A stretch of DNA of 37,478 bases, taken from a virus. The DNA lies in IMG/VR virus record IMGVR_UViG_3300048018_000465, positions 1 through 37,478 of that record. One strand, given 5' to 3'. Numbering within the stretch: position 1 is the first letter of the stretch; each line of letters opens with the position of its first letter. Shown one piece after another: positions 4,885-24,407 of this stretch. The notes under the pieces were generated by a model, which saw only the letters and a program-made list of their open reading frames with translations, had not been told where the DNA came from and ran no database searches. The position numbers and the translations under genes are program-made.

Positions 4885-5100
4885 ATGGCACTGACTGAAA
4901 AATTCAAAAAGGACATCAGCACTCTCCGTGCTGCTGCCGATGGCGAAATTTTCCTTGATGTAAAGAATCCGAAACTTTTCAAAAAGGTACGCCGCTTCTA
5001 CGAAAGAGATGGAGTGGTGTTTTCAGGAGAAGCATTAGATGATTATGAAATGTTGATGGAACTCATCTACAAAGATCTTGAAACTGTTGAGGTTGGTTGA
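4885..5100 (+). CDS. hypothetical protein
   Basis: 71 residues, soluble and charged (MALTEKFKKDISTLRAAADG...). It looks like a compact alpha/beta protein. Small proteins like it recur in T4-like cyanophages as far as I recall, without known function. It is first behind a strong early promoter, so expected early in infection. The stop overlaps the next ATG (TGATG). Confidence 0.65.
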   Translation: MALTEKFKKDISTLRAAADGEIFLDVKNPKLFKKVRRFYERDGVVFSGEALDDYEMLMELIYKDLETVEVG

Positions 5101-5375
5101 TGAACGATCTAGATTCTAAGTCTGTTGCTTCAACAAAAACCATTGTTATTCACGAACGATTGCCTTTTAGGTTTGTTCAAAAGGGTTATATTCAATCGAA
5201 TGGTAAACCTGATTTTCGATTACAAGAACAGGATTATTACAATCGTAGGTGGTTTGATGTTTATCTGTTCGACAATGGAGATCAAATGCTTCTAGCCATT
5301 GAAGATGCAGAGTATCCTAAGTGGTTGACAGGTAAACCCTGCTATATCAAAGACTCGGTAAGTCGTGTAAACTAG
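5100..5375 (+). CDS. hypothetical protein
   Basis: 91 residues from ATG 5100 (a TTG three bases earlier is less likely). Soluble, with many aromatic and basic residues (for example YYNRRWFDVYLFDNG); no recognised domain. It is coupled to the gene before and is the last gene before the structured leader at 5376. Confidence 0.6.
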   Translation: MNDLDSKSVASTKTIVIHERLPFRFVQKGYIQSNGKPDFRLQEQDYYNRRWFDVYLFDNGDQMLLAIEDAEYPKWLTGKPCYIKDSVSRVN

Positions 5376-5578
5376 CCCTGGTCGGGATGATCCCAAAGTC
5401 ACGGATGGACTCTAACAGAACTGGTGGAGTCATTAGACCCTATTAAGAGTTTACGACATCTCTCAAATGGCGTTGGTGCGGATGGGTTACTCCCGCTCAG
5501 TTTCTTACTTCTGGTTAAAAAGTAAGTGGCGTGCATGACAAGACCTGATAGGGGTGGTTGCATAAACCACTCTTTTTT
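5376..5578 (+). ncRNA. structured RNA upstream of the glycan cluster, with terminator (wcaG-like candidate)
   Basis: No ORF. A long-range helix closes the element: CCCT 5376-5379 with AGGG 5550-5553, and GGTC 5380-5383 with GACC 5542-5545, with a 4-nt bulge. Inside are GGGA/TCCC (about 5384-5394), GACTC/GAGTC (about 5408-5431), GCGG/CCGC (about 5479-5496) and CTTACTT/AAGTAAG (about 5504-5526). A terminator hairpin shares two bases with the closing helix and has six T. Such a layout (receptor-like fold, then terminator, then gene) is that of a leader riboregulator. The wcaG RNA motif was described in cyanophages upstream of polysaccharide and high-light genes; the position fits, but I cannot check the consensus. 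Confidence 0.5.
5552..5578 (+). terminator. rho-independent terminator
   Basis: GGGTGGTT (5552-5559), loop GCATA, AACCACTC (5565-5572, one G-U pair), then six T. It could end transcripts from the early genes or act as the switch of the structured RNA upstream. Confidence 0.8.
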
Positions 5579-5586
5579 AGTATAAT
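5558..5586 (+). promoter_or_regulatory. possible promoter of the glycan cluster
   Basis: A consensus TATAAT at 5581-5586 follows the terminator T-run. The matching -35, TTGCAT at 5558-5563 with 17-nt spacing, is weak and lies in the terminator hairpin. The leader to ATG 5618 would be about 25 nt. Confidence 0.45.
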
Positions 5587-5617
5587 AGATACTATGCACA
5601 ATAACCAAAATTTTTTA

Positions 5618-6718
5618 ATGAGCGACTATAAGAAAACTGCACTGGTGCTTGGAGCAGGTGGTTTTATTGGAAGTCACATGGTTAAACGACTACGATCCGA
5701 GGGGTATTGGGTGCGTGGTGTTGATCTTAAGTATCCAGAGTTCTCTGAGACTGAAGCAAATGAATTTGTTCAGGGAGATTTACGTGACGTAAGTTTTGTT
5801 TCCAGAGTCATTCAGTATAAGGGTGAACAGGGTAACTTCTATAACTCTGTTCCCTATCGTTGTATCCGTCCCTTCGATGAGATCTATCAGTTTGCTGCTG
5901 ATATGGGCGGTGCTGGTTTTGTCTTCACTGGCGAGAATGATGCAGACATTATGCATAATTCTGTCACTATCAACTTGAATGTCCTTGAAGAAGTTCGTAA
6001 ACTCAATGAGACTTTTGATGGTGAAGAAAATGGCACTGAATGTGTCCGACCTGATCTAGACCAACCCACCAAGATCTTCTACTCTGGATCTGCTTGCATG
6101 TATCCAGAACACAATCAACTCGATCCTGATAACCCTGATTGCCGTGAAGAATCTGCATACCCTGCTAACCCCGATTCAGAGTATGGTTGGGAAAAACTCT
6201 TTAGTGAGCGTCTCTACCTTGCTTACAATCGCAACCACGGCATCCCTGTTAGGATTGCTAGGTATCACAACATATTTGGTCCTGAAGGAACCTGGGACGG
6301 TGGAAGAGAGAAGGCACCAGCTGCAATCTGCCGTAAAGTCGCTTACCTCCCGGAGTCGGGTGGAGCAATCGAGGTGTGGGGAGATGGGTTACAAACTCGT
6401 TCCTTCTTGTTCGTTGACGAATGCGTTGAAGCAACTTACCGAATGATGCAATCAGACTTTATGGGACCAGTCAACATTGGTTCTGAAGAGATGGTTACTA
6501 TCAATCAACTGGTAGAAACTGCTGCTAGAGTTGCAGATAAAGAAGTTGCTAGGATTCATATTGATGGACCTCTTGGTGTACGTGGACGCAACTCTAATAA
6601 TGATTTGATTCGTGAAGAACTTGGTTGGGATTATTCACAAACTCTAGAAGAGGGTATTCGTAAAACCTATAATTGGATTAATGAACAAATTAAATCTAAT
6701 ACACTTGTTGAAGTATGA
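5618..6718 (+). CDS. GDP-mannose 3,5-epimerase homologue
   Basis: 366 residues of the extended short-chain dehydrogenase family. The NAD-binding GAGGFIG is at residues 12-18. Signature stretches of GDP-mannose 3,5-epimerase are intact: SACMYPE, SEYGWEK, GGREKAPAA, WGDGLQTRSF, VNIGSEEMV and GVRGRNSNN. The catalytic set known in the plant enzyme (Cys, Tyr, Lys, Lys) is present as C160, Y189, K193 and K232. It would turn GDP-D-mannose into GDP-L-galactose or GDP-L-gulose. I chose ATG 5618 because the earlier ATG 5594 lies at the predicted transcription start. It is first in the glycan cluster and overlaps the GT11 gene by 4 bp, so their products may work in sequence. Confidence 0.85.
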   Translation: MSDYKKTALVLGAGGFIGSHMVKRLRSEGYWVRGVDLKYPEFSETEANEFVQGDLRDVSFVSRVIQYKGEQGNFYNSVPYRCIRPFDEIYQFAADMGGAGFVFTGENDADIMHNSVTINLNVLEEVRKLNETFDGEENGTECVRPDLDQPTKIFYSGSACMYPEHNQLDPDNPDCREESAYPANPDSEYGWEKLFSERLYLAYNRNHGIPVRIARYHNIFGPEGTWDGGREKAPAAICRKVAYLPESGGAIEVWGDGLQTRSFLFVDECVEATYRMMQSDFMGPVNIGSEEMVTINQLVETAARVADKEVARIHIDGPLGVRGRNSNNDLIREELGWDYSQTLEEGIRKTYNWINEQIKSNTLVEV

Positions 6719-9742: not shown

Positions 9743-10638
9743 AAGTAATTGGTATTCTACCTTTTAAGAACGAAGAGAGATTTCTTCCAACGTATCTTTC
9801 AAATGTCCAACCAATCTGTGATGAGATTATTGCTGTTGATGATCACTCAACGGATAACTCTCGGCAAATTATGGAAGATGCTGGTGTTATTGTAAAAGGT
9901 TATGATGATACTGAAAAACTAAAAGGTGGTTGGACTTGTGGATTAATCCGCCAGCATTTGTTTAATTATGCAAGAGAAGCAGGTGGTACTCATTTTGTCT
10001 GCTTAGATGCTGATGAAACATTCACATCAAATTTTGTTCCTATTGCAAGAGATATTATGTCTCAACTGCAACCAGGTGAAAAGGTTCATATGCAGTGGTT
10101 AGCACTCTGGAAGAGTTACACTGCATATCGTGATGATCATACTGTTTGGAGTCGTAACTTTAAAGACTTTATTGTTGCAGATCATCCTGACCTTGATTAT
10201 TCATACAACTATATGTGTGAAGGTAGAACAATTGGACCTAATAATAATGATACTCTGAGAACATTGGAGGTTGAGCACGGTGCAGTTCTTCACTATCAAT
10301 TTTCTTGTTTCAATAATTTTCTTCTGAAGCAAGCGTGGTGTCAAGTTGGTGAATTAGTTCAACAGGGTCCTGGTGCTTTAGGTTCTATCAACAGTAAGTA
10401 TAGTATTTGCTATCAAGATCAGAATGTAGGTATGAGGGAAATGCCTGCTGATTGGATTAAAGGAATTCCAGAACCTCCAGTCCCAAACTTTGATCCAGAA
10501 TGGAAAGATGAAAATTTCTTAAGAGAAAATCTTTTGCCTGATATCTATAGACATTTTGATGAATATGGAGTAGAATACTTTGAAGGTCTGAATATATGGC
10601 AGATTCCACAATTATCAGAAAGGAGAAAGGGTGCATAA
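9739..10638 (+). CDS. GT2 family glycosyltransferase
   Basis: 299 residues: MKVIGILPFKNEERFLPTYL, then IIAVDDHSTDNSRQI, then FVCLDADETF with the DxD metal-binding motif. This is the SunS/WaaE-like branch of GT2, whose members often act on lipopolysaccharide core. The C-terminal third, rich in aromatic residues and ending near an IPEPPVPNFDPEW stretch, is unassigned. Coupled to both neighbours by overlap. Confidence 0.8.
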   Translation: MKVIGILPFKNEERFLPTYLSNVQPICDEIIAVDDHSTDNSRQIMEDAGVIVKGYDDTEKLKGGWTCGLIRQHLFNYAREAGGTHFVCLDADETFTSNFVPIARDIMSQLQPGEKVHMQWLALWKSYTAYRDDHTVWSRNFKDFIVADHPDLDYSYNYMCEGRTIGPNNNDTLRTLEVEHGAVLHYQFSCFNNFLLKQAWCQVGELVQQGPGALGSINSKYSICYQDQNVGMREMPADWIKGIPEPPVPNFDPEWKDENFLRENLLPDIYRHFDEYGVEYFEGLNIWQIPQLSERRKGA

Positions 10639-23164: not shown

Positions 23165-23324
23165 GTCGAGAGGTTAAGAAACCAACACATTTCTTAACTG
23201 TTCGTTACACCCCGCAAACCAAGACCTATAGGGTGTATAAAAACGTCTTTAATACCTGTATCTAAGGGTGATACAGGAATAGTAAAACCATCATTTCCCT
23301 GATGATCTTACTTTTTTCAATTCA
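23165..23324 (+). promoter_or_regulatory. structured psbA leader
   Basis: About 150 nt between promoter and ATG with no ORF. Hairpins: GTTAAGAAA 23173-23181 with TTTCTTAAC 23190-23198; ACACCC 23207-23212 with GGGTGT 23231-23236; CCTGTATC 23255-23262 with GATACAGG 23270-23277; a CATCA/TGATG hairpin near 23289-23304. Leader structure could protect the mRNA or set translation rate. Confidence 0.55.
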
Positions 23325-24407
23325 ATGGCTAACGCTACATTACAACAACAACAAACAACCTCATCGTGGGAATCTTTCTGCGAGTGGGTAACTTCTACCA
23401 ATAACCGCCTCTATGTCGGTTGGTTCGGCGTACTGATGATTCCAACTCTGTTGGCAGCAACTATCTGCTTCATCGTCGCCTTCGTCGCTGCTCCCCCCGT
23501 GGACATCGACGGCATCCGTGAACCCGTCGCTGGTTCACTCATGTATGGTAACAACATCATCTCTGGTGCAGTTGTTCCATCTTCCAACGCAATTGGTCTT
23601 CACTTCTACCCAATCTGGGAAGCCGCATCGCTCGACGAGTGGCTGTATAATGGTGGTCCTTTCCAACTCGTAATCTTTCACTTCCTCATCGGCATCTTTG
23701 CCTACATGGGTCGTGAGTGGGAACTTTCATACCGTTTAGGTATGCGCCCCTGGATCTGTGTAGCATATTCTGCACCAGTCGCTGCAGCATCTGCTGTATT
23801 CCTCGTCTATCCTTTCGGTCAAGGTTCTTTCTCCGATGCTATGCCTCTTGGTATCTCTGGTACTTTTAACTATATGCTCGTCTTCCAGGCAGAGCACAAT
23901 ATTCTTATGCATCCGTTCCACATGCTCGGCGTTGCTGGGGTATTCGGTGGATCTTTGTTCTCTGCTATGCACGGAAGTCTTGTTACTTCCTCACTTGTTC
24001 GTGAAACAACTGAAACAGAGTCACAGAACTATGGTTATAAGTTCGGTCAAGAAGAAGAGACGTACAACATCGTTGCTGCACACGGTTACTTCGGTCGCCT
24101 GATCTTCCAATATGCTTCATTCAACAACTCCCGTTCCTTGCACTTCTTCCTTGCTGCATGGCCTGTTGTCGGCATCTGGTTCACCGCACTTGGTGTTTCC
24201 ACGATGGCATTCAACTTGAACGGTTTCAACTTCAACCAGTCCATCCTTGATGGTCAGGGTCGTGTGTTGAACACCTGGGCAGACGTTCTGAACCGCGCTG
24301 GTCTTGGTATGGAAGTTATGCACGAGCGTAACGCTCATAACTTCCCACTGGATCTTGCTGCTGCTGAGTCAACTCCTGTTGCTCTTACAGCACCCACAGT
24401 TGGTTGA
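23325..24407 (+). CDS. psbA: photosystem II D1 protein
   Basis: 360 residues, full length, five-helix D1 with the C-terminal extension after NFPLDLA that the host CtpA protease removes. The position equivalent to residue 130 of the standard D1 (E131 here, GREWELSYR) is Glu, the form found in high-light D1 isoforms. Core ligand regions ([26 protein letters not shown]) are intact, so it should be functional. The phage copy replaces damaged host D1 and keeps photosynthesis going during infection. Dual early/late promoter, structured leader, and own terminator. No intron is visible. Confidence 0.98.

Follow-up and report, generated by a model that had tools for sequence, protein, structure and literature searches.

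The cyanophage wcaG RNA as the 3' half of a tandem pseudoknot array with a possible role at a transcript boundary

Which RNA lies in the gap before a nucleotide-sugar epimerase gene of an uncultivated virus, and to which of its two neighbouring genes it belongs, are the questions raised by this locus. The window (the whole stretch of DNA analysed, 37,478 nucleotides of IMG/VR record IMGVR_UViG_3300048018_000465) was initially annotated with a structured RNA in this gap, with the layout of a riboswitch or of a leader that carries an expression platform and possibly representing the wcaG motif or a relative of it, and the presence of a structured RNA at this place was borne out. Weinberg et al. 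put the wcaG RNA of marine cyanophages forward in 2010 as a candidate riboswitch, and it is listed as such under the entry 'wcaG Y y y' (PMC2864571). Our main reading, to which a rough probability of 0.55 was assigned, is that wcaG is no 5'-UTR riboswitch but part of an undescribed cyanophage array of four interchangeable H-type pseudoknot modules in fixed order, which overlaps the upstream stop codon, tolerates ORFs between its modules and would mark the 3' limit of a transcription unit at a terminator-promoter before variable cargo (glycan clusters, tRNAs or hli). The family core is known, the four-module architecture is new and the role is reinterpreted.

The identity of the core was settled by an Rfam scan of the window, in which RF01761 was matched over its full length (model positions 1-98 of 98, E = 2.1e-15) at more than twice the gathering score. 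All three consensus helices of the family were found, with one non-standard mismatch each in helices 1 and 2, and the stretch is thus a wcaG RNA, as had been suspected, in front of an exopolysaccharide-type gene. PhotoRC-II RNA (RF01717, 76.4 bits) was found at 23195-23290 of the window, upstream of psbA at 23325. The family is annotated by the depositors in S-SCSM1, S-SCSM2R and S-CREM1, and all of the 88 phage records with wcaG belonged to Synechococcus phages, Prochlorococcus phages or cyanophages. Bacterial occurrence was rejected: 15 of the 16 pattern matches in GTDB look coding or unrelated, and the remaining one, the only real match, lies on a phage-like contig of a MAG. This locus (L434, NZVE01000057, labelled Rhodobacteraceae) was identical to the phage contig L100 over the stretch read, and its contig is probably of phage origin and was assigned to the MAG in binning.

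For the comparison of relatives, a pattern scan of IMG/VR was used, by which at least 120 stretches were collected, with 111 distinct ones after duplicate removal. The first set comprised 111 loci among the listed IMG/VR matches, with the window included and one chance pattern match (L068) dropped; as it was picked by the module-3 linker, the conservation of that linker is not counted as evidence. A second, independent set of 73 loci was anchored on the module-4 tail, and two more scans were anchored on the upstream (type A) modules. The loci are related to each other, so that counts are not independent events, and gene calls in the metagenome contigs are simple ORFs. It was by sequence comparison of these loci that the module anatomy and its covariation, the order of the modules, the stop-codon overlap, the nested promoter and the combination of a conserved upstream gene pair with varied downstream genes were established.

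The features of the locus are collected in Table 1. The wcaG match covers only modules 3 and 4 of an array of four tandem modules of about 52 nt, each composed of an H-type pseudoknot and a GC hairpin.

Table 1. Coordinates of the genes, RNA modules and expression signals around the wcaG locus (positions of the window)
Feature	Position	Strand	Details
Small conserved gene, PHROG 552, function unassigned	4885-5100	+	PHROG match 4e-26
Small conserved gene, PHROG 481, function unassigned	5100-5375	+	PHROG match 9.3e-31
Module 1 (type A)	5352-5394	+	S1 GACT 5352-5355 / AGTC 5361-5364; stop codon in loop 3; CUGGUC linker 5378-5383; hairpin GGGA/UCCC 5384-5394
Module 2 (type A)	5397-5440	+	S1 AGTC 5397-5400 / GACT 5408-5411; loop ACGGATG; CUGGUGGAGUC linker; hairpin GUC/GAC 5429-5438
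wcaG match (RF01761)	5445-5540	+	Rfam, 87.9 bits (gathering score 42)
Module 3 (first wcaG half)	5447-5496	+	Pseudoknot S1 GAG 5447-5449 / CUC 5460-5462, L1 UUU; S2 5453-5459 / 5467-5473 with one purine mismatch; UGGUGCGGAUGGG linker; hairpin GGG/CCC 5484-5494
Module 4 (second wcaG half)	5497-5531	+	H-type pseudoknot S1 UCAG 5497-5500 / CUGG 5511-5514, L1 UUU; S2 CUUACU 5504-5509 / AGUAAG 5521-5526; L3 UUAAAA; then UGGCG
Intrinsic terminator	5550-5578	+	AGGGGTGGTT-GCATA-AACCACTCTT and U-tract; from sequence, conserved in relatives
Sigma-70-like promoter within terminator	5558-5586	+	TTGCAT 5558-5563, 17-nt spacer, TATAAT 5581-5586
NAD-dependent nucleotide-sugar epimerase (GDP-mannose 3,5-epimerase-like)	5618-6718	+	Pfam Epimerase 1.6e-36, PHROG 540

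Module 4 has the plan S1 of 4 bp, L1 = UUU, S2 of 6 bp, an A-rich L3, then UGG, and the letters of its S1 differ among the loci (CUGG/CCAG, CAGG/CCUG, CCUG/CAGG, CCAG/CUGG, CUAG/CUAG and others). Over 37 distinct sequences, 99.7% of the cells of this pseudoknot were paired, compared with 76.7% after shuffling, and double (compensatory) changes were present in 9 of the 10 pairs; the covariation reached 0.714, against 0.241 for shuffled sequences and at most 0.169 for slid registers. The same pseudoknot was recovered in 71 of 72 loci of the independent set. The module-3 pseudoknot was present in 96 of 111 loci among the listed matches and in 21 of 555 shuffled sequences. In the structure line of the RF01761 covariance model, the S1 strands of the pseudoknots are left unpaired.

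In type A modules, S1 is followed by a GG-containing loop and then by A-rich sequence, CUGGU(C/G)G and a GC hairpin. Their S1 is likewise variable in letters (AGUC/GACU, AGAC/GUCU, CGUC/GACG, CGUG/CACG and CGAC/GUCG), and in module 1 it covaries across the loci. A second helix is indicated by the pairing of loop base 2 with tail base -4 (92%, null 73%, 0 of 2000) and of loop base 5 with tail base -5 (52%, null 34%, 0 of 2000); beyond these two pairs it is uncertain, with no covariation and an odd GG bulge. The 7-nt loops of type A nearly all contain GGA (ACGGAUG, AUGGAGA or UCGGAAU), as at 5397-5411 of the window, and GGA in loops resembles the sites of CsrA/RsmA. A type A pseudoknot occupies the position of module 3 in a few loci, so the modules look interchangeable from their sequences.

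This anatomy differs from the one first proposed, in which a long-range helix of 8 bp closed the whole element from 5376 onwards. The letters concerned, CCCTGGTC at 5376-5383 and GACC-TGAT-AGGG at 5542-5553, are as given in the initial annotation, and the complementarity exists in the window, which scored highest of the 60 loci compared. The full 8-bp form was present in only 4 of 83 relatives and showed no co-variation; over the 60 loci each side matched its own partner no better than a swapped one (11.33 and 11.53, respectively, p = 0.31). The nested minimum free energy fold of 5376-5578 gave z = -0.76 against shuffles, 43 of 200 of which were equally stable. Because of these three results the closing helix was treated as chance, and a closed 180-nt element held together by it, which was ruled out by the comparison of relatives, is extremely improbable. 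The expected covariation in homologous leaders was thus absent from the closing helix and strong in the other helices of the RNA. Several stem-loops do lie between, in keeping with the 'at least four hairpins' described; these are really H-type pseudoknots, which a nested fold cannot display. Nor does the element start at 5376, since module 1 begins near 5352, in the final part of the upstream coding sequence.

The modules of the array stand in a fixed order. Its commonest layout, L1-L2-L3-L4-terminator, was found in 20 loci, and the same layout with an ORF-sized gap after L1 in 19 more (both among the listed matches). In many loci ORFs of about 70 amino acids stand between the modules with the module order unbroken, as if the intermodule junction were an insertion site for small ORFs; in L005, L020, L030, L031 and L061, unrelated ORFs of about 68-75 amino acids were seen at about -290 to -25 from module 3. 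Within 1.01 Mb scanned, 126 type A modules were counted on the array strand and none on the opposite one, and all but one lay within 1 kb upstream of wcaG. When the scans were anchored on type A modules, a linker of wcaG type followed downstream in 104 of 106 and in 37 of 45 loci, respectively, and in the 8 exceptions of the latter set a tRNA-like gene follows at once. Five loci (L251, L263, L309, L325 and L326) carry a single type A module and one hairpin directly before a tRNA gene and are without wcaG. In two others (L213 and L234) modules 3-4, the wcaG core, are lost, whereas a type A module is kept together with the start of the gene that follows; L213 retains the terminator and L234 only TATAAT.

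One full wcaG per record was found in the 11 records or genomes searched. Repeats spread over the genome in the manner of REP elements were rejected: a single array was present in the window and a single one in the whole genome of S-SM2, with the other type A matches at shuffle level. A tmRNA-like RNA (four pseudoknots plus an ORF) was likewise rejected, with none detected by ARAGORN. The single copy, the fixed module order and the terminator that closes the array would agree with a stand-alone noncoding RNA that is released from the locus and acts in trans. Such an RNA would need a promoter in front of it, but TATAAT was found in 5.8% of the stretches directly upstream of the array and in 10.8% of the control stretches, that is, without enrichment; in addition, module 1 overlaps coding sequence and small ORFs are inserted between the modules. 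A stand-alone RNA could be cut out of the mRNA; as a whole, this explanation was considered quite unlikely.

The most constant neighbour of the array is the gene before it. The TAG stop codon of this gene (5373-5375) lies inside module 1, and among the listed matches its homologue (PHROG 481) preceded the array in 77 of 98 loci, with the homologue of the gene before that (PHROG 552) upstream in 76 of 98 and either of them in 88 of 98; in the independent set either was present in 61 of 64. The two are probably T4-GC 250 and T4-GC 249, respectively, as their counterparts are labelled in S-SM2. The upstream stop codon was no more than 12 nt from the UGGU of module 1 in 36 of 77 loci and 13-60 nt from it in 18 more (among the listed matches). 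Where the stop codon falls inside module 1, the pseudoknot encodes the last residues of the protein (DTDGL*, DMESL* or DSVSSQN*), and the peptides differ while the RNA fold is kept. The constancy of these upstream genes may be due to genome synteny and need not mean a common transcript.

A stop codon in loop 3 of module 1, as in about half of the loci, might also be expected if the pseudoknots held or reloaded the ribosomes that end there, for reinitiation at the next gene, and an inserted ORF often begins a few nucleotides after a module hairpin. Translational coupling of this kind was nevertheless judged improbable: a terminator and a new promoter precede the next gene in most arrays, and where the array is followed by a tRNA gene there is nothing to be translated.

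Behind the array, both signals read from the sequence in the initial annotation, a terminator-like hairpin (5550-5574) followed by TATAAT, were found again, and the -10 element belongs to a promoter nested in the terminator. Of the 105 loci whose sequence extended far enough (among the listed matches, a count that includes the terminator-less L068), 84 had a terminator after module 4, and a perfect TATAAT stood just behind it in 57 loci of these matches; in the independent set the numbers were 69 and 48 of 70, respectively. In the window and many other loci TTGCAT or TTGACA lies in the terminator loop, 17 nt from the -10 element. In stretches of 120 nt, TATAAT was found in 54% of those after module 4 compared with 10.8% of the controls, and pairs of this kind are rare elsewhere, being seen at 3 of the 13 plus-strand terminators of S-SM2. 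Cyanomyovirus early promoters are believed to resemble sigma-70 promoters and to be used by the unmodified host polymerase (PMC2984593). The distance from the -10 element to the ATG had a median of 21 nt in loci of the terminator class. An in-frame ATG at 5594-5596 of the window, 24 nt before 5618, could be the true start of the epimerase and would leave only 7 nt after the -10 element.

The genes downstream are diverse, falling into 29 clusters or families among the listed matches. Where a terminator precedes them, most are glycan genes, like the epimerase of the window, the first gene of its glycan cluster. In S-SM2 and Bellamy the next gene is also an epimerase. Loci without a terminator lead into tRNAs, 2OG-oxygenases and tail-fibre-like genes. 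The next gene is a tRNA in S-CAM1, S-RSM4 and S-CREM1, an oxygenase in S-SCSM2R and hli in Syn9, with a consensus promoter (TTGACA-17-TATAAT) between array and hli. In L100, L015 and L030 there is neither terminator nor promoter, and the array adjoins the next start codon.

With these neighbours in view, the original proposal can be weighed, in which tandem pseudoknot aptamers would sense a sugar nucleotide or another metabolite and set the read-through of the terminator into the glycan genes, with the nested promoter supplying a basal level. A riboswitch in a 5' UTR is co-transcribed with the gene that it controls and needs an expression platform; tandem aptamers are known, and compact pseudoknots with a U-rich L1 and an A-rich L3 resemble known pseudoknot aptamers. 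The prevalence of nucleotide-sugar and glycan genes as the next gene in terminator loci agrees with the proposal, as does the filing of wcaG as a riboswitch candidate (PMC2864571). Against it, the next gene has its own promoter at the short distance given above, and the terminator arms paired with their own array no better than with the arrays of other loci (p = 0.83 and 0.40), so that an anti-terminator, or an expression platform covarying with the terminator arms, was not detected. The array also stands before tRNAs, hli, an oxygenase and tail-fibre genes, and the two loci that have lost modules 3-4 keep the start of the following gene, one of them with the terminator. The layout of a leader with an expression platform, as first described, was consequently not upheld, since the promoter overlaps the terminator, no covarying anti-terminator accompanies it and the conserved neighbour is the upstream gene; metabolite-controlled read-through was considered unlikely.

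The position of the promoter, nested in the terminator and after the array, speaks against a placement in the 5' UTR. Together with the absence of an anti-terminator signal and of promoter enrichment before the array, it led us to favour a 3'-end transcript-boundary element of the upstream unit over a 5'-UTR riboswitch, a role for which the chances were put at about even from the sequences compared. RNA polymerase would read the upstream genes (small genes after a tRNA cluster) and then the array, and would halt at the terminator, and the glycan cluster would start afresh from the nested promoter. The mature 3' end would then carry the compact pseudoknots, in which loop 1 is U-rich and loop 3 A-rich. 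By analogy with REP/BIME elements and with roadblocks made of pseudoknots in other viruses, the array would most likely protect or define this end, by blocking 3'-to-5' exonucleases or fixing the RNA boundary; a stable RNA derived from the 3' UTR would possibly be left over. In loci where a tRNA takes the place of the terminator, cleavage by RNase P could give the same 3' end. Several points run counter to a boundary element: the next gene in terminator loci is mostly a glycan gene, as a glycan-sensing riboswitch would also predict; some loci have neither terminator nor promoter; the conserved upstream genes may be due to synteny; and the conservation of linker and loop sequences is stronger than a simple roadblock needs.

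If the RNA does belong to the 3' end of the upstream transcript, a riboswitch candidate may have been hunted for its ligand in the wrong frame. For bacteria and phages, the array would then provide a clear example of pseudoknots repeated in tandem at 3' ends. Its logic, though not its descent, would be comparable with that of the exonuclease-resistant RNAs of eukaryotic viruses, and the insulation of variable cargo clusters in cyanophage genomes would find an explanation.

Among the systems known, wcaG itself (RF01761) is the closest, with modules 3-4 well over the gathering score, a marine cyanophage as the source and a position upstream of an exopolysaccharide gene; it differs in being filed as a cis-regulatory 5'-UTR riboswitch candidate, for exopolysaccharide or high-light genes, whereas here it forms the 3' half of an array attached to the upstream gene. 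The manA RNA (RF01745) is a cyanophage candidate riboswitch described together with wcaG, and neither the window nor any of the 12 sources scanned contained a match to it. It is found in S-CREM1 in the same tRNA region, 373 nt downstream of wcaG; there (OP535465, 10215-10429; L449, 2442-2656) it fits exactly between tRNA-Leu (ends at 10213) and tRNA-Asn (starts at 10429), and because of this fit manA, too, may be processed from the transcript of the tRNA operon instead of acting in a 5' UTR. STAXI (RF01728) is a pseudoknot in two or three tandem copies in intergenic regions (PMC2864571). It had no match in the Rfam scan of the window and resembles the array (four copies here) in kind only, by its tandem repeated pseudoknots, but it occurs in enterobacteria, near DNA-handling genes and with UUCG tetraloops. 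In the REP/BIME elements of enterobacteria, structured units are arrayed directly behind stop codons, at the 3' ends of transcripts. The array of the window shares with them the array form, the position at a stop codon and the presumed placement at a 3' end; REP/BIME units are simple palindromic hairpins in hundreds of copies, whereas the cyanophage array is present once per genome and consists of pseudoknots in fixed order.
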